Source: a virus | Virus record (IMG/VR): IMGVR_UViG_3300045741_000367 | Location: 1-29,350 of that record | DNA: 29,350 bases | Strand: one strand, 5' to 3' | In this document: in pieces, positions 834 through 25,432 of the stretch | How the letters are laid out: each line of letters opens with the position of its first letter | Position numbering within the stretch: the first letter of the stretch is position 1 | The notes under the pieces: generated by a model | Databases searched by the model: none | The model's input: only the letters and a program-made list of their open reading frames with translations | Told to the model about the DNA's origin: nothing | Program-made: the position numbers and the translations under genes

Positions 834-1876
834 TCACCCGGGCTTTCAGCAATTTGAAGTCCAATGTTGATCATCTCCTCTGGCTCAAGCTTGATTCCGC
901 AGCTGGTTGGCGGCACCTTGTCCAGGTAGCGGCTAAAGATGGAGCGGGTAGTCCATGCGGGCTGCTCTGTTTCTACTGGCCCCTTTGGCTCGGTGACGCT
1001 GTATTGGTATACTGGGTCGGCCGCGACATGACTAGGGTTAGCGAAAAATTTCTCGGCCTCCGCGGCACTTCGCAGGCACACCTTATAGCGGTCTTCTGAC
1101 GTGGCTGGGTCTTGCTGCAAAAAATCTTCAAGGGACAGTACGTGGTACTGCGGAAATCCGGTGATTGGCACCCACTCCACTTGGCAGCTATCAGTGTCAA
1201 CGACGGCCACTCGCTTTTCCTGGCCGCTTTCTCCAAAGTTTTGCTGAAGGGGAGATCCGATGTAGTGGGCGCGTGGCGTGATGGCCTGCCCAAGGTGAAT
1301 GTGCCCCAAGAGGGTTAGCGTGAATGGCTCAATGGTCGCCTTTGCTATTCCCGTCAAGGCCGCTCCACTGCCGGTGGCTGTGCCGCTGACTTGAAAATGC
1401 CCCAGCAAGATTGCGGGTGACCCGCAGCAGGCCTCCTGGGCGGCCTTAAGCCAGTGCGTTAGGTTTACCTCACTTGTTGGGTAGGCCGCGGCGCAGATGA
1501 TTCTGTTGTCAATTCGCAGTGTCGCCGCCGCGCTGACGATGTGCGGAAAAATGGAGTGAAATAGATTTCCGGAGTGAATGCGGCCGTCCTTGAAGTGCTG
1601 CTCATGGTTGCCGATGAGCTTGACATTGTGAGGTGACCGTGGAAATTTTTTGAGGCCGTCAATGACAACCTGAATGGTGGGCACTGGGATGGCCGACCGA
1701 TCATCAAGCGTGTCTCCAAGGTCAAGGAGTCCGCTGCAGCCATAGTTTTTGTAAATTTCAAGCAGGCGCGTGAAAAAATGCTCGACGCGCCATCGCTGCA
1801 GTGGGGTGTCCGGGCAAAGGCGGCAAGGCTCGTGCCCGTCGGTGGCTTGAACGTCGGCGAATGCCAGTAATTTCAT
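830..1876 (-). CDS. SbcD/Mre11-like calcineurin-type phosphoesterase (T4 gp47-like)
   Basis: 348 residues. Metallophosphoesterase motifs appear in order: FADVQ (motif I, residues 6-10), LLDLGDTLDD (motif II, about 50-59), LIGNHEQHF (motif III, about 87-95), LLGHFQVS and LLGHIHLG (the two His motifs, about 157-197). This is the SbcD/Mre11/T4 gp47 arrangement: a Mn-dependent nuclease subunit that works with an SbcC/Rad50/gp46 ATPase in end resection and recombination-dependent replication. The usual DxH of motif I is DxQ here, so one metal ligand differs. No gp46 partner lies in the window. It overlaps the MazG-like gene upstream (1873-1876) and the glycosyltransferase downstream (830-833) by ATGA, giving a three-gene coupled operon. 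Confidence 0.88.
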   Translation of the reverse strand: MKLLAFADVQATDGHEPCRLCPDTPLQRWRVEHFFTRLLEIYKNYGCSGLLDLGDTLDDRSAIPVPTIQVVIDGLKKFPRSPHNVKLIGNHEQHFKDGRIHSGNLFHSIFPHIVSAAATLRIDNRIICAAAYPTSEVNLTHWLKAAQEACCGSPAILLGHFQVSGTATGSGAALTGIAKATIEPFTLTLLGHIHLGQAITPRAHYIGSPLQQNFGESGQEKRVAVVDTDSCQVEWVPITGFPQYHVLSLEDFLQQDPATSEDRYKVCLRSAAEAEKFFANPSHVAADPVYQYSVTEPKGPVETEQPAWTTRSIFSRYLDKVPPTSCGIKLEPEEMINIGLQIAESPGE

Positions 1877-2313
1877 GTGCAGCAGTTCATGAAGCTTTCA
1901 CGGGCCTCGTGAATAGCCTGGCATGTGGGGCAAATAAGCGGGTCGCCGACGAGGTCCTCGTGTCGAGGCGGCTTCCAGCCAGGTGGCTTGACTACGTCAA
2001 AGGCCGTTTGGCGCTTGCTGTCATGGGCGCTGGCGGCCCTAATCTTTTTCATGTTGGCGGAGTGCACGCGGCGCCACGCCTCGTCAAAGTTCCACCCTCT
2101 CAGGTAGGCGTATCCTAAAATCACGTAGACTAAGTCACAGCAGGCGTCAAGCTGGTCAGCGTTTGAGCTGGAGTTGACGAGCTCCTTAAACTCCTCTTCA
2201 ATGAACTTAAGGCGAAAGCGCTGCAGCTCTTCGCTAAGCTGTCGCGGCGGGCCCTCATAGGTCAGTCCGTATTTGGCGTGAAAATCCTTGATGTCCTGCC
2301 AGACGTTAATCAT
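1873..2313 (-). CDS. MazG-like nucleotide pyrophosphohydrolase
   Basis: 146 residues from the ATG at 2313; an ATG six codons upstream (2331) is also possible and neither has a clear ribosome site. The N-terminal part has the MazG/PRA-PH helical signature: DIKDFHAKYGL, then FIEEEFKELV, then LDACCDLVYVILGYA (the ExxE...D-x-x-D metal-binding pattern), then WRRVHSANMKKI. Such phage enzymes hydrolyse dNTPs or related nucleotides, and phage MazG has been proposed to affect ppGpp levels or host metabolism. The C-terminal 40 residues hold a CPTC pair and a final CC, perhaps a half zinc site. First gene of the operon with the phosphoesterase and glycosyltransferase. Confidence 0.85.
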   Translation of the reverse strand: MINVWQDIKDFHAKYGLTYEGPPRQLSEELQRFRLKFIEEEFKELVNSSSNADQLDACCDLVYVILGYAYLRGWNFDEAWRRVHSANMKKIRAASAHDSKRQTAFDVVKPPGWKPPRHEDLVGDPLICPTCQAIHEARESFMNCCT

Positions 2314-2406
2314 GACCACCAGAATAGGCATTGCCAGCCAATCACGCGAGTGGAAATTCGTATTCTTTAGGGGTGAACAGAATGGAGGCTAGCAGTTGAG
2401 ACATAG

Positions 2407-3154: not shown

Positions 3155-5083
3155 ATGCCAAAACCTACCGGCCTTAATATCCTTCGCCACCTGGGCATGA
3201 TCGGGTCGCCTCTCTCGATGGGAAGCGGCGGCATCGTTCCGCGAGCGGCGACTCCGGCCGCGCAGGCCGCCCAGCGGGATGACTTTTTTGACCTTGGGCG
3301 CGTGGCCAACCCAGAGATTTGGTACGCGCACGTGATGAAGCGTCCCAGCACGCTGGAGGCCCAGCTGCAGCTGTGGGATGAGATGTCCACGTGGGACCTG
3401 ATCACGGCGGCGCTTGTTGAGATCGTTGACGAGACAATTCAGGCTGACACGTTCAAAGATAAGTCAATCTGGTATGAGAGCAGTGACAAGAAGAGCGAGG
3501 ACGAGGTCAATCAAATGCTTCAGCACATCAACGCCGAGGGACTCCTGCCTTCGCAGGTGTGGCACGTGGCCAGCCTTGGAAATCACTATGAGAAGATTGA
3601 CTACGCCGTTGGAGATGGCATCCGTGGGCTGACTTTTGTTCACCCATTTGACATTCGCCGATTTTGGCTGGAGCGAAATCGCCAGTGCATTGGCTTTCGC
3701 TGGAAAGGCCACGTTCCAAACAAGGAGGACATCTACGTTCAGCCAGACAACAAAACGCCCATTGAGCGCGTCGCGCTGAGCACGGGCAGCGCGATTGAGG
3801 ACCTTTACTACCCATGGGACTTTATGCACATGCGCCGCATGTTTCGGCTGCGCAGCACGGAGCATGGCGAGCCACTTTTTGACGAGGCCCAGGGAATTTA
3901 CAAGAAGCTGCGGCTGGCGCTGGACCAGATGGTGGTGCACCGCGCGCAGGTGCAGCCCGACCGTTACGTGGTCAACATTGACACGCAGGATCTTCCCCCA
4001 ACGGAGCAGATGAAGGTCGTCAATCGCTGGCGCCAGTCTCTTCGCAACAAGCAAACATTCGGCCTGGGGACAGACTCCCAGTCGCTTAACACGCCGGATG
4101 AATTTCGAAGCTTTTACAATCCTTGGGCGCTGGACACCATCTTTTACATGGCCCGCCCCAAGGGGGTCGCACACGCCATTGAGAAGCTGGCCGGCACGCC
4201 GCAGGTTCCTGACGTCTTTGACATTGAGCTTCTCATTGACCTTTTCTTCTCCATCATTGGCATGCCAAAGTCTTGGTTTGGCCTAGGTGGGGGCAGCTCA
4301 GGCGGGGCGGTAATTCCGTCAGGGCGGTCGCTGCTCGCGCAGGACATCCGCTTCCTGCGCAAGGTTAAGTCACTGCGACGCCCCATCGTGGAGAGCTACA
4401 CGTGGCTGGCGTACTTTCACCTGCTCCTGCGCGGCGTTGACATCCAGCACGTCAATTGTCAAGCCAAGATGCCTGACATCGGGGGCCTTGAGGAGCAGAT
4501 GAAGATGGACCTGATTAAGTCTCAGGCCGAGGTGCTTGGCATGTTGGGAGACGTCATGACGCAGTACAACCTTCCCAAGGAGGCGTGGGTTGAGCTGATC
4601 TTCAAGCGCTATCTTCACCTCCCTGATGAAATTGTCAACGTCTTCATCACCTCGCTTCCTGCTGAGCGGGAGCCTGTCCCAATGGAGGGACTTACCAGGG
4701 CCCCCTCAGAGTCTAAAATTCTGGAGATGATTGGCCAGCGGCTGGCTGGGTCTTCGGCTGTTAGCCGGCTGCGGGATAAGATCTCCATGTATTTTGAGGC
4801 CAAAACGTTTAGCTCAAGTGGCGGCGTCATGACATCGCAGCAGTTTCTCAAGACCATGCAGGCGCCGGTGGCCTGCTTAGGTGACCGGTGTGGCATTTCA
4901 ACAGAAAGCATGACTGCCGTCGCCGCCGCGGACTCAAAGGGCAAGAGGCGGCCCATGGTTAAGCTTCAAGAAAGCCAAGGCTTAGGCGGAGAAAGCTCAA
5001 GCAATGGAGGCCCTGATGGCACGCAGTCGATGCCACGCCAGTGGCGCCAATACATGCCATCAAAGATGAACGGCCATGCTTAA
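3155..5083 (+). CDS. portal protein (T4 gp20-like)
   Basis: 642 residues, in the size range of gp20-type portals (about 520-650). Portals form a dodecameric ring at one head vertex for DNA entry and tail joining. Supporting stretches include EAQLQLWDEMSTWDLITAAL and YPWDFMHMRRMFRLRSTEHG near residue 215-235 (the conserved 'hyperlink to W/H...R' core of myovirus portals), ALDQMVVHRAQVQPDRYVVN, and RFLRKVKSLRRPIVESYTWL of the C-terminal wing. The C-terminal 100 residues are low in structure and rich in Ser/Gly/Gln. No ribosome site is obvious before the ATG; a short AT-rich leader precedes it. It overlaps the baseplate gene by 8 nt. Terminase and head genes are not adjacent, so head genes are scattered. 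Confidence 0.88.
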   Translation: MPKPTGLNILRHLGMIGSPLSMGSGGIVPRAATPAAQAAQRDDFFDLGRVANPEIWYAHVMKRPSTLEAQLQLWDEMSTWDLITAALVEIVDETIQADTFKDKSIWYESSDKKSEDEVNQMLQHINAEGLLPSQVWHVASLGNHYEKIDYAVGDGIRGLTFVHPFDIRRFWLERNRQCIGFRWKGHVPNKEDIYVQPDNKTPIERVALSTGSAIEDLYYPWDFMHMRRMFRLRSTEHGEPLFDEAQGIYKKLRLALDQMVVHRAQVQPDRYVVNIDTQDLPPTEQMKVVNRWRQSLRNKQTFGLGTDSQSLNTPDEFRSFYNPWALDTIFYMARPKGVAHAIEKLAGTPQVPDVFDIELLIDLFFSIIGMPKSWFGLGGGSSGGAVIPSGRSLLAQDIRFLRKVKSLRRPIVESYTWLAYFHLLLRGVDIQHVNCQAKMPDIGGLEEQMKMDLIKSQAEVLGMLGDVMTQYNLPKEAWVELIFKRYLHLPDEIVNVFITSLPAEREPVPMEGLTRAPSESKILEMIGQRLAGSSAVSRLRDKISMYFEAKTFSSSGGVMTSQQFLKTMQAPVACLGDRCGISTESMTAVAAADSKGKRRPMVKLQESQGLGGESSSNGGPDGTQSMPRQWRQYMPSKMNGHA

Positions 5084-5792
5084 AATTATCGCCACCCCTG
5101 ACCAGACGTTTCTTGCATCTGGCCGCTATGGCCTGCTGGTCTCAATTCAAGAGGATGACCTGCTGCTTGGTGACAGGCTGGTTTCTGGGGAAATTAGCTG
5201 GGGTGACGGGTCCGTGGTTGCCATTGACCTGCAGGCTATTCAAGTTGGGGAGCTGGCCACCGCTCCGGTGCTCTACACGCACGACTTTTTGCCTGGGATG
5301 CATGTCGTGCGGGTGATCGCCAAAAATTACAGGGCCCCCGTGGCCGACGTTGACCTGTTTGTTGATTATGTGAACTTGACGCGGGCCGCGGCGCCGGCCG
5401 CGCCGGGTGGAAATTTGACGATTGGGCCGATCATGTCACGTGACGTGGGCTATCCAAACGCTAGCCAATGGAAGTTTGACGTCGGCCGTGACCTGCAAAC
5501 GGTTGAGTCGGCCGTCAAGCTTCTCCTGACGACGGCGCGGGGTGAGCGCCTCATGAATCCTGACTATGGGACTAATCTTGGCCGGATTATTTTTGACTCA
5601 GATGACGCGGCCATTGATGGCCTGGTGCAGCATGAGATATCCCAGGCCGTTGAGCGGCACGCGGGCGGCATCGTCACAATTCAGTCTATTTCTGTAAATC
5701 GTGGCGGCCCGCGTCGAATTAACGTTGAGGTGAAGTTTATCTCACGCGCGAAGCGCCAGCCCTTTCAAGTAAACATGAAGTTTGAGCGATGA
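5076..5792 (+). CDS. PKD-like domain fused to gp25/GPW baseplate wedge protein
   Basis: 238 residues. The C-terminal half (about 122-238) is the gp25/GPW family: WKFDVGRDLQTVESAVKLLL, RGERLMNPDYGTNLGRIIFD and a strand-rich end. In T4 and related injection machines gp25 holds the sheath initiator position on the baseplate wedge. The N-terminal 110 residues are extra: ISWGDGSVVAIDLQ followed by YTHDFLPGMHVVRVIAKN is the WGDG...H-x-F-x-x-G-x-H-x-V-x-V pattern of PKD/Ig-like beta sandwiches. An Ala/Pro linker joins the two. Typical gp25 is about 130 residues, so this is roughly doubled. Starts inside the portal 3' end; shares ATGA with the next gene. Confidence 0.85.
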   Translation: MLKIIATPDQTFLASGRYGLLVSIQEDDLLLGDRLVSGEISWGDGSVVAIDLQAIQVGELATAPVLYTHDFLPGMHVVRVIAKNYRAPVADVDLFVDYVNLTRAAAPAAPGGNLTIGPIMSRDVGYPNASQWKFDVGRDLQTVESAVKLLLTTARGERLMNPDYGTNLGRIIFDSDDAAIDGLVQHEISQAVERHAGGIVTIQSISVNRGGPRRINVEVKFISRAKRQPFQVNMKFER

Positions 5793-15190: not shown

Positions 15191-15361
15191 TTAATCGCCA
15201 AATTCAAGGTCAATGCTGATCTCTCCAGAGATTTGGTGGAGCTCGATGTCGATGGCGGGCTCGTTTCCTCCCACAGGCTCAAGGGCGTTTGGCGTCACCT
15301 CAGTTTCTAGGTGGGCCGCCGTCGGGATGGTGGCGGCCTCCTGCTCAAAAATATTTTTCAC
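15191..15361 (-). CDS. small acidic hypothetical protein
   Basis: 56 residues from a GTG at 15361, read directly: MKNIFEQEAATIPTAAHLET..., ending ISIDLEFGD. Strongly acidic with no rare-looking residues and typical GC-rich third positions. No ribosome site before the GTG, and no ATG in frame, so it could also be the remaining 3' end of a decayed gene. Divergent from the GroES gene with 24 nt between starts. Confidence 0.45.
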   Translation of the reverse strand: MKNIFEQEAATIPTAAHLETEVTPNALEPVGGNEPAIDIELHQISGEISIDLEFGD

Positions 15362-15385
15362 GCAATAAGTAGATTCTTGGAGGCT

Positions 15386-15964
15386 ATGTCAACACTAAAA
15401 TTACGCGGTGAGCTCGTGGCCGTCACGGAGGCCACCGAAACTTTCGAGTCAAGCTTGGCTCTGCCACAGGAGCGCAACATTGCATACAACCTGGGAAAGG
15501 CCGTCGCCATTGGCGACGGCAAGCTGGCAGACCGGCAAGCAGAGATGCTTGTCAAGCCTGGTGACCTTCTGCTGTTTCAGATGAACGGCATTCAGGCCAC
15601 CAATTCCTTGCACCTGTGTGATGGCCAGCCCATATTTATTCTTAACCAGGGGGACATGATCGCGCGGCTGCAGAGCACAACCATCAGCTTGAAGTCGTTT
15701 GAGATCTTGGGCGGCTGGGTGCTGCTGGAGCCATTCTTAGACATGAAGGACAACATCATCGTCATCCCTGACACTGCCATGACGTCGCAGACGGAGCTGC
15801 AAAAGTACCGTCTGCTTCAGCAGGGATCCACGGCAAAGTTAGACGCCGTGGCCGGCCAAGAGCTGGTGGTGGAGCGAATGCGCGTTCACCGCATTGACAT
15901 TGGCGGCGACACGTGCGGCTTTATCCACTCAAGCTGCGTTCACGGGGTGATTGAGCAGGACTAG
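15386..15964 (+). CDS. tandem two-domain GroES-like co-chaperonin
   Basis: 192 residues from an ATG with GGAGG six nt upstream, one of the few strong ribosome sites here. N-terminal half: ELVAVTEATETFESSLALPQ (mobile-loop region), YNLGKAVAIGDGKL, VKPGDLLLFQMNG, GQPIFILNQGDMIARL, which follows GroES strand by strand (GEVLAVGNG, VKVGDIVIF, GEEVLIMSESDILAIV). C-terminal half repeats the fold: GGWVLLEPFLDMKDNIIVIP DTA, then AGQELVVERMRVHRI and CGFIHSSCVHGVIEQ. LAL and IVI could be the hydrophobic tripeptides that touch GroEL. Phage co-chaperonins such as T4 gp31 cap host GroEL to fold the head protein, but have one domain. Confidence 0.8.
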   Translation: MSTLKLRGELVAVTEATETFESSLALPQERNIAYNLGKAVAIGDGKLADRQAEMLVKPGDLLLFQMNGIQATNSLHLCDGQPIFILNQGDMIARLQSTTISLKSFEILGGWVLLEPFLDMKDNIIVIPDTAMTSQTELQKYRLLQQGSTAKLDAVAGQELVVERMRVHRIDIGGDTCGFIHSSCVHGVIEQD

Positions 15965-16130: not shown

Positions 16131-16798
16131 AGCTGTGAGAGTTGCCTTCGCCCTGCTGGGTCAATTTGTAGCACGTCGTCGATGTACAGCGTGGCCTCAA
16201 TCTTGTGAACGACCGGGGACTCATAGCTGACGTCCGTCAGCCTAATTCCGCCAAGCCACGCGTTTACCAGGACATAAACTGACGCCACCTGCAGCCCTGC
16301 GCCCAGGTTTGGGTCGCCGACAGCTGCATCCTCGGCGTCCTGGCGGCCTCCCTGCAGAAATTGCAGGTTCAAGTTGAATTGCCACTCCAGGGGAGGCTTG
16401 AAGTTTTGGCCGAGGGTGGGCACGCTTTCCGTTGACATGCCACCACGGCCTGATCGGACAATGGACCGCCACGCGTTGAGCAACCTGTAAATTTTTGAGC
16501 AGCGCACGTCATTCTCAGCGGTGCTGGAGACGTCATGAGTAAACGTGATTCTTGCAGGGCTAAGCTGTGAGTCGAGGCCTGGCATGTTGTAGGGGCGGGA
16601 GTCGCGGTAAATTATGTCGGGGGTGATGGCCAGCTCCGGCAGCGTGACGGCGCTGGCGTAGAACGTTGTCTTGCCGTTAAGGCCATAGGAGCCGCCGCGG
16701 CTTTCAAACTCGCGGATGAGCGGCTCAAGGTTGACCTCCCACAGGTCGCTGCGCTGGGGCTCCAGCTCTCGGCCCCATGGATTAAGTGAAAGTCTCAT
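16127..16798 (-). CDS. tail-tube or tube-initiator-like baseplate protein (gp19/gp54-like)
   Basis: 223 residues from ATG 16798 (a GTG one codon upstream is possible). LWEVNLEPLIREFESRG, then FYASAVTLPELAITPDIIYR, YNMPGLDSQLSPARITFTHD, CSKIYRLLNAWRSIVRSG and VLVNAWLGGIRLTDVSYESP follow the order of the gp19 tube fold: target surface, P-G-L loop, T-F helix-W and final strands. Longer than gp19 (163 residues), and close to gp54-type sizes, so a tube initiator or tube-end protein is possible. Paired head-to-head with the spike gene. Confidence 0.6.
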   Translation of the reverse strand: MRLSLNPWGRELEPQRSDLWEVNLEPLIREFESRGGSYGLNGKTTFYASAVTLPELAITPDIIYRDSRPYNMPGLDSQLSPARITFTHDVSSTAENDVRCSKIYRLLNAWRSIVRSGRGGMSTESVPTLGQNFKPPLEWQFNLNLQFLQGGRQDAEDAAVGDPNLGAGLQVASVYVLVNAWLGGIRLTDVSYESPVVHKIEATLYIDDVLQIDPAGRRQLSQL

Positions 16799-16818
16799 CA
16801 CGTAATTATCACGGACCT

Positions 16819-17613
16819 ATGCTTGGAACTCTCTATGGCCTATACGGCGGCATCGTGCGTGAAAACGGCGACCCGCAGCGGCTTGGCCGGCTTAAGGTTC
16901 ACGTCCCAACGGTGTATGGGGTTGCCGGTCCAGATACCCAAGAGTTGGGAATTGATGACCTTCCGTGGGCGTGGCCATCTGGCATGCCAGCGGGCGGCAC
17001 GGCCGCCTCAGGGGGCGTTGACTGGCTGCCGAACGTTGGCGATCACGTTTGGGTCAGATTTCTAAATGGCGAGCCTGAGCACCCTGTGTGGGAGTGGGGC
17101 AGCCAAGACGTTGGCCAGGCCAAGGTTTTTCCCCTTCATGACTACGACGCGAAGACGGGGAAGCCCAAGCGGGCGGCCATCACGAGGTATGGCCACACGC
17201 TGGACTTTACCGCCAGCGGCGTCATCCTGACCACCAAGGGAGGCTACGCCATTGCCATTGATGACAGTGCCACGCAGCTTGGAAGCATCACCATTCGCTC
17301 GCCTGGAGGCCACTCTGTCAAGGTTGATGACGCGGCGAGCGTTGTCACGCTGGAGTCAAGGGCGGGCCAGGCCATCACGCTGGATGACCTGGCCAACTCC
17401 GTGCGAGTGCAGGCCAATCAAGATCTAGACGTTCAGGCCATGAGCGAGGCCAACATTCAGGGCGGCAGCGTGACCATCGAGGCCCTTGGGGAAAGTGTTG
17501 ACATCAAGGTTGGGCTTACCGCCATCACCCTTGCTGATGGTGAGCTGACCCTGGACGTGGGCGGGAACAAGCTAACGATCAGCGACTCAGGGTTTGACTT
17601 TTCTGGCATCTAG
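16819..17613 (+). CDS. baseplate spike/hub protein (gp5/VgrG-like OB fold)
   Basis: 264 residues from ATG 16819; a GTG at 16786 would add 11 residues but overlap the divergent gene. LYGLYGGIVRENGDPQRLGR then LKVHVPTVYG, DLPWAWPSGMP and LPNVGDHVWVRFLNGEPEHP VWEWG form the gp5/VgrG OB-fold domain (about 1-100). The rest has short repeated strands (ITIRSPGGHSVKVDDAASVV, VTLESRAGQAITLDDLANSV) that look like a triple-stranded beta-helix needle. No lysozyme domain is seen between, unlike T4 gp5. Such a protein pierces the outer membrane. Confidence 0.83.
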   Translation: MLGTLYGLYGGIVRENGDPQRLGRLKVHVPTVYGVAGPDTQELGIDDLPWAWPSGMPAGGTAASGGVDWLPNVGDHVWVRFLNGEPEHPVWEWGSQDVGQAKVFPLHDYDAKTGKPKRAAITRYGHTLDFTASGVILTTKGGYAIAIDDSATQLGSITIRSPGGHSVKVDDAASVVTLESRAGQAITLDDLANSVRVQANQDLDVQAMSEANIQGGSVTIEALGESVDIKVGLTAITLADGELTLDVGGNKLTISDSGFDFSGI

Positions 17614-22685: not shown

Positions 22686-23798
22686 TTAAAGTGCAATTTT
22701 TCGCAGCTCCTCTAGGCGCTCCGCCGGGGGTGCCAGCCCGCCGACGGCGGTGTAGACCACGATGCCATCCTTGCTGCCGCTGTAAATTCCGCGGTGAATG
22801 GTGCTGCCAGGCTTAAGCAACCTGGATAGCTGATCAAAGGCGTGGTCCAAGTATTCCTGCGGAACTGAGCTTAAGGTTGTGGCGCCGCCAATGACAATGG
22901 CTCCCGCGACGCTGCCCGTCGCCAAGTTGACGCCGCCAGTTAGGATGTTTTTCTTCAAGTTGTCTCGCACGGCAAAGCTGATGTCCGTTGCGTCAGCCCA
23001 GCGGCTGACCGGCGTGGCCCCAAGAACAATCAGCCCGCTGTCCAGGATTGTCCTAAAGTCTGCCGCATCGAAGCTGGTGTAGCTGGAGTTGTGGATGCTG
23101 ACAGAGTTGAAGAGGTGCAGCAGTCGGCTTATGCTGGAGTTGGCCGTGTCCCAGAAGGTGTCAACGGACAGCCCAGGAAAAATTCGGCTGGTGCGCTCAT
23201 TGTCGATGAGAATCAGCGGCGAGACGTGGCCGTCTTTTACCAGGGCCAGCAGCTCTTGAAGCACACGGTAGGCGTTGGCGCTGGACTTGGCCCCCTCGGA
23301 ATTTTTTGGCAGCGCCGCGATGATCCCTATCTTGGTGGCTGGGAGGCGAAGTGCGGCCTGCAGCTCTTGAACGATGCTAACCAGCGGGACGACCATTCCA
23401 GCGCCCGTGCCACCTCCAAGCCCAGCCGTGATGAAGACGCGGTCAAACGACGGCCCGAAGCAGCGGCGCATGAAGTCTAATGCGTCCTCTTTTCGTTCAG
23501 CCAAGAATGCCGCGGCGACTTCTGGCTGCTTGCCGGCCCCTCCATGTCCAAGAAGCAGCTTATTTGCCTCAGGGAGGTGGATTGACGCTAGGTCTTGAAG
23601 CGCGGTGTTGATGACGGCGCATCGCTGGTAGCCCAGGCGGTAAAAGGCCTGCGTGAGGCGCGAGCCGCCTTGGCCTACACCGATCATGGCAAATTTGAAG
23701 GCAGAGTTGAAGGCGTCCTTAGCTTCAGCAGGGCCTGTCTCAACAGGCAGCGGAATGTCAGGCGTTTCAATGTCGAATCCTGGCGTAATGTTTTCCAT
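22686..23798 (-). CDS. FtsZ/tubulin-superfamily GTPase
   Basis: 370 residues from ATG 23798; the longer frame to 23936 would run through the intergenic motif and the next gene. GTP-site loops in order: T1 IGVGQGGSRLTQ (about 38-49), T3 LGHGGAGKQPEV AAAF (about 82-97), T4 AGLGGGTGAGMVV (the tubulin signature, about 124-136), and a T7-like SFDAADFRTIL (about 243) where FtsZ has N-x-D-x-x-D. The Asp pair is kept, the Asn is Ser. Loop T3 and T7 look more like FtsZ than like PhuZ or tubulin. Filament-forming and GTP hydrolysis are inferred. Such proteins position phage DNA or the replication body, or interfere with host division. Divergent from the gene at 23848. Confidence 0.85.
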   Translation of the reverse strand: MENITPGFDIETPDIPLPVETGPAEAKDAFNSAFKFAMIGVGQGGSRLTQAFYRLGYQRCAVINTALQDLASIHLPEANKLLLGHGGAGKQPEVAAAFLAERKEDALDFMRRCFGPSFDRVFITAGLGGGTGAGMVVPLVSIVQELQAALRLPATKIGIIAALPKNSEGAKSSANAYRVLQELLALVKDGHVSPLILIDNERTSRIFPGLSVDTFWDTANSSISRLLHLFNSVSIHNSSYTSFDAADFRTILDSGLIVLGATPVSRWADATDISFAVRDNLKKNILTGGVNLATGSVAGAIVIGGATTLSSVPQEYLDHAFDQLSRLLKPGSTIHRGIYSGSKDGIVVYTAVGGLAPPAERLEELRKIAL

Positions 23799-24275: not shown

Positions 24276-24947
24276 ATGTCACTCAAAAAACTTAATATCG
24301 GGACCGAAGTCAAGCCCAAGGCTAAAAATGAAATCCCCGTGTTTGTCGTGAACAATGACATTACGCGGTACAACGAGGCCTGCCTGGCCCTGGTGGAGGC
24401 GGAAGCCACCGTCAAGGAGCTGCGGCCGGCCATTGAGCAGGCGGGCTTCAAGCGGCTCGTGGACGTCAACGTCAGCAACCCCTACAGCCCTCTGTCTAGC
24501 GTTAAGCTGGAAGATCCGAGCGGCGCGAAAGTTCGCGTGACGATGGCGGCTCGCTACAAGGTGGCCAACGCTGACGTTGCTAGCCACCTCTTCGAGGAGC
24601 TTAATGACAAGGATGGCAATGCCGTGGACGTGAACACCTACGTTCACGAGACGGTGAAAGCCTCATTTGACAGCAGCGTCTTCATGCGGAAAACCTCCGT
24701 CACCAACCCTGACACAGGCGAAAAGCTGGAAGTTAGCGAGTTTGTCCCTGCCATTTACGAGGCCTTTAAGACGGCCATTGAGGGCGTGGCCAAGAAGTTG
24801 GGCGTCCCGTCGCCGCTGAGCAGCACGACGGTTTGTCTGCCGAAGCCAGAGTTTCACAAGCTTCGCTGGGCGAAGTTTGACGTGGAGTCAAACTTGAAGA
24901 TTCAAGAGTCGCTGCCGGCGGTGGTGTCGGTGGCTGACAACGTGTGA
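24276..24947 (+). CDS. hypothetical protein
   Basis: 223 residues. Helical start (RYNEACLALVEAEATVKELR), a beta-rich middle (SPLSSVKLEDPSGAKVRVTM) with an Ala-rich helix after it, and IYEAFKTAIEGVAKKLGVPS. Not recognised. Ends in GTGA-type overlap with a possible GTG of the HD gene. Motif-driven start makes it probably early-expressed, with the HD gene and helicase behind it. Confidence 0.65.
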   Translation: MSLKKLNIGTEVKPKAKNEIPVFVVNNDITRYNEACLALVEAEATVKELRPAIEQAGFKRLVDVNVSNPYSPLSSVKLEDPSGAKVRVTMAARYKVANADVASHLFEELNDKDGNAVDVNTYVHETVKASFDSSVFMRKTSVTNPDTGEKLEVSEFVPAIYEAFKTAIEGVAKKLGVPSPLSSTTVCLPKPEFHKLRWAKFDVESNLKIQESLPAVVSVADNV

Positions 24948-24997
24948 ATCTCGCCCACGTCGACCAACGTGTTACATGTCTCAGGTCCCACACCGTT

Positions 24998-25432
24998 ATG
25001 ACACCTATGACACCAGAAGAAATTGAGCACTACGCGACGCTGGCATCTTGGACGGCTGCATACGCTCATCGAAATCAAAAGAGGAAGCTAAATGGCCTGC
25101 CTTACTTGGTGCACCCAACGGCCGTGGCCGCTCAGCTTCCCGCTGAGTTAAAGCCCGTTGGGTATTTGCATGACGTGCTGGAGGACAACTCAGTTGAGTA
25201 TTCTGAGGAGATGCTGCGCGGCCTGTTTCCAGCGCAGATTATGGACGTTGTGGTTACTTTAACGCGAAGGAGTGGCGAGCCGTATGATGACTACGTCATG
25301 CGCGTCGCGCAGAATCCAGCTGCCAGACAGGTAAAAATTGCGGACCTGCGAGACAACCTGAAGGACTTGTCGGCAGGCAGTCTTCGAGACAAGTATCGCC
25401 TCGCGCTGCGGCTTCTCGGTGAGACGCCATGA
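24998..25432 (+). CDS. MESH1/SpoT-like HD alarmone hydrolase
   Basis: 144 residues from ATG 24998; ATG 25007 or an upstream GTG at 24944 are possible. Motifs of the (p)ppGpp hydrolase HD family in order: AYAHRNQKRKLNGLPYLVHP (first His and the R/K-x-G-x-P-Y pattern), YLHDVLEDNSVEYSEE (HD...ED), and VKIADLRDNLKDL (the K-x-A-D-x-x-D/xNL motif). Stand-alone proteins of this size (small alarmone hydrolases) remove the 3' pyrophosphate of ppGpp. In a phage this would lift the stringent response or counter alarmone-based defence. Substrate is inferred from motifs. ATGA overlap with the helicase. Confidence 0.82.
   Translation: MTPMTPEEIEHYATLASWTAAYAHRNQKRKLNGLPYLVHPTAVAAQLPAELKPVGYLHDVLEDNSVEYSEEMLRGLFPAQIMDVVVTLTRRSGEPYDDYVMRVAQNPAARQVKIADLRDNLKDLSAGSLRDKYRLALRLLGETP

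Follow-up and report, generated by a model that had tools for sequence, protein, structure and literature searches.

The phage genome fragment analysed here encodes a predicted GTPase of the tubulin superfamily that most likely represents a lineage sister to plasmid TubZ, a placement drawn from its nucleotide-binding loops, a family-profile search of the PDB, the fold of its AF2 model, profile–profile comparison and phylogenetic trees. It is judged somewhat probable that this GTPase polymerises into dynamic filaments that move or place phage cargo late in infection. The window, an entire IMG/VR contig of 29,350 bases, covers part of a tailed-phage genome, and in agreement with the initial annotation it encodes a 370-amino-acid tubulin/FtsZ-superfamily protein with the following features, for which conservation was counted over 64 non-redundant full-length phage homologues:

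22686–23798, minus strand: coding sequence of the TubZ-related phage GTPase, 370 aa, ATG start (Pfam Tubulin 3.2e-13; AF2 pLDDT 86, pTM 0.87; homologues found)
23745–23774, minus strand: N-terminal peptide DIETPDIPLP, residues 9–18, conserved, in an acidic tail of low pLDDT
23658–23681, minus strand: T1 loop GVGQGGSR, residues 40–47 (G40, G42–G45 and R47 in 64/64)
23529–23543, minus strand: T3 loop GGAGK, residues 86–90 (G87, G89 and K90 in 64/64; A88 in 63/64)
23397–23423, minus strand: T4 signature GLGGGTGAG, residues 126–134 (G129, G130, G132 and G134 in 64/64)
23196–23204, minus strand: T6 DNE, residues 199–201 (D199 and N200 in 64/64)
23058–23072, minus strand: T7 loop FDAAD, residues 243–247, with predicted catalytic acids D244 and D247 (both in 64/64)

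The mechanically called open reading frame is longer by 46 codons upstream and begins with TTG, but the family N-terminus (MxxxxxFDxxxPDIPLP) favours the ATG at 23798, which is preferred because the relatives begin at that position. The match to Pfam Tubulin (PF00091) reaches 50.8 bits against a cut-off of 33, Tubulin_2 matches over one stretch (2.8e-9, above its cut-off), and NCBIfam FtsZ matches at 1e-19; judged from these sequence comparisons, the superfamily match is far beyond chance. All four loops that had been read from the sequence are present (T1 GVGQGGSR, T3 GGAGKQPEV, T4 GLGGGTGAG and T7 SFDAAD), and the T7 acid pair D-x-x-D, already described as kept, is invariant. The replacement of the T7 Asn by Ser is likewise real, but it is not a decayed FtsZ feature because TubZ also lacks that Asn. 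The PEV that the initial annotation read at the end of T3 varies across the family (PAV, REV or RKV in relatives). Ahead of the GTPase domain, the acidic N-terminal tail of the phage family carries P(D/E)IPxP, with P13 present in 61/64, I15 in 62/64 and the last proline, P18, in 64/64. The protein ends at residue 370 inside the terminal helix, without a flexible C-terminal tail, and the AF2 model contains no coiled coil. The low dN/dS of close pairs (0.02–0.08) indicates that the phage gene is under strong purifying selection.

The initial annotation assigned the protein to the FtsZ lineage, whereas tree, profile comparison, fold and loop motifs all place it beside TubZ, which is the nearest relative of the phage family by profile, fold and tree. 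The T1 motif GxGQ occurs in several TubZ proteins (those of Alicyclobacillus, Niallia and Paenibacillus) and in one CetZ, whereas FtsZ has GxGG; the T6 motif DN is that of TubZ and CetZ, with PN in most FtsZ compared; and the family T7, TxFDxxD, resembles TubZ and CetZ (FDxx(D/E) in most TubZ), whereas FtsZ has NxD. A PDB search with the window protein alone ranks FtsZ first (1.7e-14), whereas the family profile places Bacillus cereus TubZ (2e-24) ahead of FtsZ (4e-19), and the profile result is preferred. Profile–profile comparison gives TubZ at 1.8e-42 over 323 columns, FtsZ at 2.5e-14 and PhuZ at 9.6e-7. The structural and phylogenetic comparison with FtsZ, CetZ, TubZ and PhuZ that had been proposed likewise returns TubZ as nearest instead of supporting FtsZ. 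For the AF2 model, the closest Foldseek match is TubZ (TM 0.79), and VIA structure comparison gives TubZ a Z of 38.0 (2.2 Å over 329 residues), CetZ 32.9–35.3 and FtsZ about 31, with a core identity to FtsZ of about 22–26%; tubulins and PhuZ are absent from the 50 VIA matches listed. The window protein has no match to the FtsZ C-terminal Pfam domain, and its sole C-terminal Pfam match is TubZ-like_C, at 0.014 in the window and above the cut-off in the L012 phage and in the bacterial homologue L109.

In the full tree, the family groups with TubZ (93/99), FtsZ stands apart (100/98) and PhuZ forms a separate long-branch clade (100/100). The grouping with TubZ rises to 100/99 in a reduced tree from which the longest branches were removed; here plasmid TubZ falls between a few of the phage rows at weakly supported internal nodes, so that the order in which TubZ and the family branch is tentative. 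Filing the protein as FtsZ was rejected as the best placement on the NCBIfam equivalog cut-off (71.1 bits against 295.2), the tree and the profile–profile comparison, although forcing the family and FtsZ together in an AU test costs 18.6 lnL with a p-AU of 0.07, short of strict rejection. Filing it as PhuZ was rejected as the best placement on the tree and the profile–profile comparison, although the AU test of the family and PhuZ as one clade gives a p of 0.30, no rejection, with long branches in play. The earlier view that the protein is not a PhuZ is borne out by the full tree, in which the family lies outside a monophyletic PhuZ, and by the greater distance of PhuZ than of TubZ.

The resemblance to known systems is therefore closest for TubZ (RepX), known from Bacillales plasmids and Clostridium phage c-st, which is the best neighbour in fold, profile and tree. 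Identity between TubZ and the phage family is only about 17–28%, however, and whereas TubZ-Bt has a C-terminal tail beyond the core, the phage family instead has its acidic N-terminal tail with the conserved PDIPLP. The phage family also differs from TubZ in residing in large phages, many of them with linkage to packaging genes. PhuZ of the Chimalliviridae is likewise a tubulin-superfamily GTPase of large phages with D-x-x-D in T7, but its profile score is far lower, its T1 is GGxG-like and it lacks DNE. Bacterial and archaeal FtsZ share T3, T4 and the T7 acid pair with the phage family and differ in T1 and T6. FtsZl1 and FtsZl2 are FtsZ-like families that have diverged but keep the T4 signature (PMC2875224), each with its own type of C-terminal region, which in FtsZl1 includes a coiled coil; the tree contained no FtsZl sequences, and the phage family differs from them in having a T6, a T7 and a C-terminal domain that can be aligned with those of TubZ along the full length, and in lacking a coiled coil. 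One phage gene from the TubZ neighbourhood, which sits on a long branch, falls in with TubZ and not with the present family:

L151, 2992–4119: Bacillus phage G gp138, annotated 'putative FtsZ-like cell division protein'

Relatives are widespread in uncultured phages. A first IMG/VR scan found 25 related loci and a profile scan at least 454, the best 80 of which were fetched; several lie on contigs of 116–230 kb. Among 50,697 phage records there is one weak partial match, an unannotated gut fragment. The larger contigs searched hold exactly one tubulin-family gene each, with no second tubulin gene, by a search that also recovers the PhuZ of phage 201phi2-1, with a score under the family cut-off. 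A single-sequence query with 201phi2-1 chimallin found no match in ten contigs of 77–230 kb; the same query gave no hit in two of the four other phages with PhuZ to which it was applied. The top match in a comparison with predicted viral structures is a protein of an uncultured phage that carries the name 'FtsZ Cell division GTPase', so automatic annotation has already encountered this family or something closely related to it; literature searches found no published account of this phage family. One member (L015, 1310–2476) has a stretch of about 30 residues duplicated in frame (INQFWNTSNNSICSLFNLFNNIITKNSS), which may be an assembly artefact.

The virion genes of the window bear on its description as a T4-like phage:

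3155–5083, plus strand: T4-type portal protein (Portal_T4, 3.4e-15)
5076–5792, plus strand: gp25-like baseplate wedge protein (GPW_gp25, 2.1e-9)
16786–17613, plus strand: baseplate hub/spike OB-domain protein (Phage_base_V, 1.1e-9)

The description suits the presence of these three genes in a loose sense only, since the Portal_T4 match is remote and the cultured relatives found are distant. The window also encodes a GroES-like (Cpn10) protein of 217 aa (15311–15964, plus strand; a remote match), a RelA/SpoT-type HD hydrolase (24944–25432, plus strand) and a MazG-like pyrophosphohydrolase (1873–2331, minus strand), the last two pointing to nucleotide-pool or alarmone control. Eighteen proteins of the window have counterparts in the 230-kb L004 phage, mostly in one block, the TubZ-related protein being the most alike (57%). 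It is also the most alike protein between L004 and L012, both 230-kb phages and otherwise very different (53%, against 18–42% for eight others). This highest likeness between divergent phages therefore implies strong constraint or transfer between phages. The 230-kb relative encodes a PurZ-like synthase 4 kb from its TubZ-like gene (L193, 17390–18379, minus strand; G001:C1:177387–178379), scoring 143 bits to PurZ and 60 to PurA TIGR00184, short of the curated cut-off (300); possibly, this relative contains 2-aminoadenine DNA.

Gene neighbourhoods fall into several groups. Terminase and portal-like genes precede the TubZ-related gene in an apparent operon at 47 of about 100 sampled loci: at 31 the portal-like gene lies directly before it, mostly at a spacing of −4 to +10 nt, and at 16 more a single extra gene, c18, intervenes. 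The order in this large group is large terminase (PHROG 5e-26), a protein of 640–700 aa (c1), the optional c18 and the TubZ-related gene. The c1 protein is predicted to be portal-like from a model of low confidence (pLDDT 62), whose listed matches are phage portal or connector structures throughout; in sequence it matches nothing in Pfam, PHROG, the PDB or the phage records, and it has no profile match to the window's portal. In the window, the gene instead stands alone on the strand opposite to its neighbours, which are convergent and divergent at gaps of about 50–65 bp. In the freshwater-type L012 group it comes after the gene for a 178-aa uncharacterised protein (c3), with a GTP cyclohydrolase gene and a QueD-like one in the vicinity. 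Because the gene lies outside the packaging operon in the window and in the L012 and L016 groups, a role tied to the operon is not general, and no partner gene common to all neighbourhood groups was found. The position of these two genes next to the TubZ-like gene in the L012 group (L009, 5411–6157, minus strand; L013, 5419–6072) suggests 7-deazaguanine DNA modification.

The catalytic acids are intact under strong constraint, which argues for GTP hydrolysis coupled to assembly, that is, for filaments. In the proposed mechanism, subunits would polymerise head to tail, driven by GTP, with the T7 acids of one subunit completing the GTPase site of the next. The dynamic filaments would place replicated DNA or proheads late in infection and could bring the two together, and the N-terminal PDIPLP peptide may be the attachment point for a partner, a job done by the C-terminal tail in TubZ and FtsZ. 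TubZ filaments move plasmids, and PhuZ filaments move the phage nucleus or DNA and capsids (PMC7950403, PMC13282480). A late filament joining proheads and DNA is the best guess because of this cargo transport by TubZ and PhuZ together with the packaging linkage. Of the functions offered by the initial annotation, filament formation and the centring of phage DNA are still the ones favoured.

A structural or assembly factor of the head, for example a scaffold or capsid-positioning protein with a GTPase fold that forms no long filaments, would also suit the tight linkage to terminase and portal genes at the 47 sampled loci. This is unlikely, as the linkage is lost in other groups in which the GTPase residues are still invariant. 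Just as unlikely is a partition motor of the type III, tubZRC-like kind, which would keep the phage genome as a low-copy plasmid in pseudolysogeny, as in phage c-st. Its appeal is that the nearest characterised kin by profile and fold is TubZ, and that most of the family's plasmid-collection matches are TubZ-like genes carried by Bacillales plasmids, with a small ORF of about 105–125 aa directly upstream at all six loci fetched. No such tubR-like upstream ORF is present in the window or at the other phage loci inspected, however, and no centromere iterons were found near the gene in the window, L004, L012 or L044, by a search that found none at plasmid L153 either. Partition in pseudolysogeny is considered less likely because of these two absences, and the position of the gene among packaging genes in the terminase–portal group also speaks against it.

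Less probable again is interference with, or co-opting of, host division, either by co-polymerisation with FtsZ or by capture of FtsZ partners through the N-terminal IP-rich peptide. FtsZ carries a DIPxFL peptide at its C-terminus, which PDIPLP loosely recalls, a lead only, and the protein matches FtsZ at superfamily level (NCBIfam, PDB). However, an inhibitor needs no invariance of both catalytic acids over such divergence, the low core identity to FtsZ makes co-assembly unlikely, and the suggestion that the protein poisons host FtsZ gained no positive evidence. Assembly into filaments of its own remains the preferred reading for the phage protein.

Close kin in bacterial genomes were found only in MAGs of Phycisphaerae/Planctomycetota and Omnitrophota, besides one phage-type contig within a bacterial bin (L105). 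The cellular homologues, on the chromosomes of these MAGs (L106–L119), include:

L106, 4809–6131: cellular TubZ-like GTPase
L109, 4821–6101: cellular TubZ-like GTPase
L119, 4434–6116: cellular TubZ-like GTPase

They are 36–39% identical to the phage protein over most of its length, spanning the GTPase and C-terminal domains, and phage and cellular members form one clade in the full tree (98/96). Although this identity could point to a recently acquired host gene with no set phage role, such an origin is very improbable given a separate and broad phage clade of at least 454 loci under strong purifying selection. The cellular family differs from the phage family in often having a long basic N-terminal tail, against a short acidic one, in its T1 (GQCGGR) and in being chromosomal; the copies inspected sit among chromosomal genes, in tandem pairs in L119 and L117. 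The tail, present on many cellular members, spans 80–220 aa, is rich in Lys and Ala and is histone-H1-like. Occurrence is sporadic (8 of 198 genomes of class Phycisphaerae), and any tubulin-family match was found in 3 of 119 Planctomycetota and 1 of 58 Omnitrophota genomes. In most MAGs that hold it, the cellular gene is the sole tubulin-superfamily gene found, with no canonical FtsZ recovered; in one Omnitrophota MAG, a short contig carries a canonical FtsZ as well. Two Planctomycetota genomes (L159 and L160, from G143 and G070) encode another divergent protein of FtsZ type, which the tree places as sister to FtsZ. The cellular TubZ-like family of some Phycisphaerae and Omnitrophota is apparently undescribed so far.

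The phage tubulins covered in reviews are of two kinds, the PhuZ of phages that form a nucleus and the TubZ of the plasmid-prophage c-st (PMC7950403), and two distinct tubulin representatives are described in jumbo phages (PMC7824862). The present family looks like a third kind besides PhuZ and the c-st type of TubZ. It is possible, and proposed here tentatively, that it constitutes a third phage cytoskeleton class, with a filament sister to TubZ and outside the PhuZ clade that is expressed with packaging genes in a large group and joins proheads and DNA, and that with the sister family, which has a basic tail resembling DNA-binding ones and occurs in Planctomycetota and Omnitrophota without FtsZ, it would make up a shared, undescribed DNA-positioning tubulin. 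If this is true, tubulin-based positioning would be common among large phages, well beyond those that form nuclei, and the cellular sister family would offer a lead on how DNA or division is organised in lineages without FtsZ.
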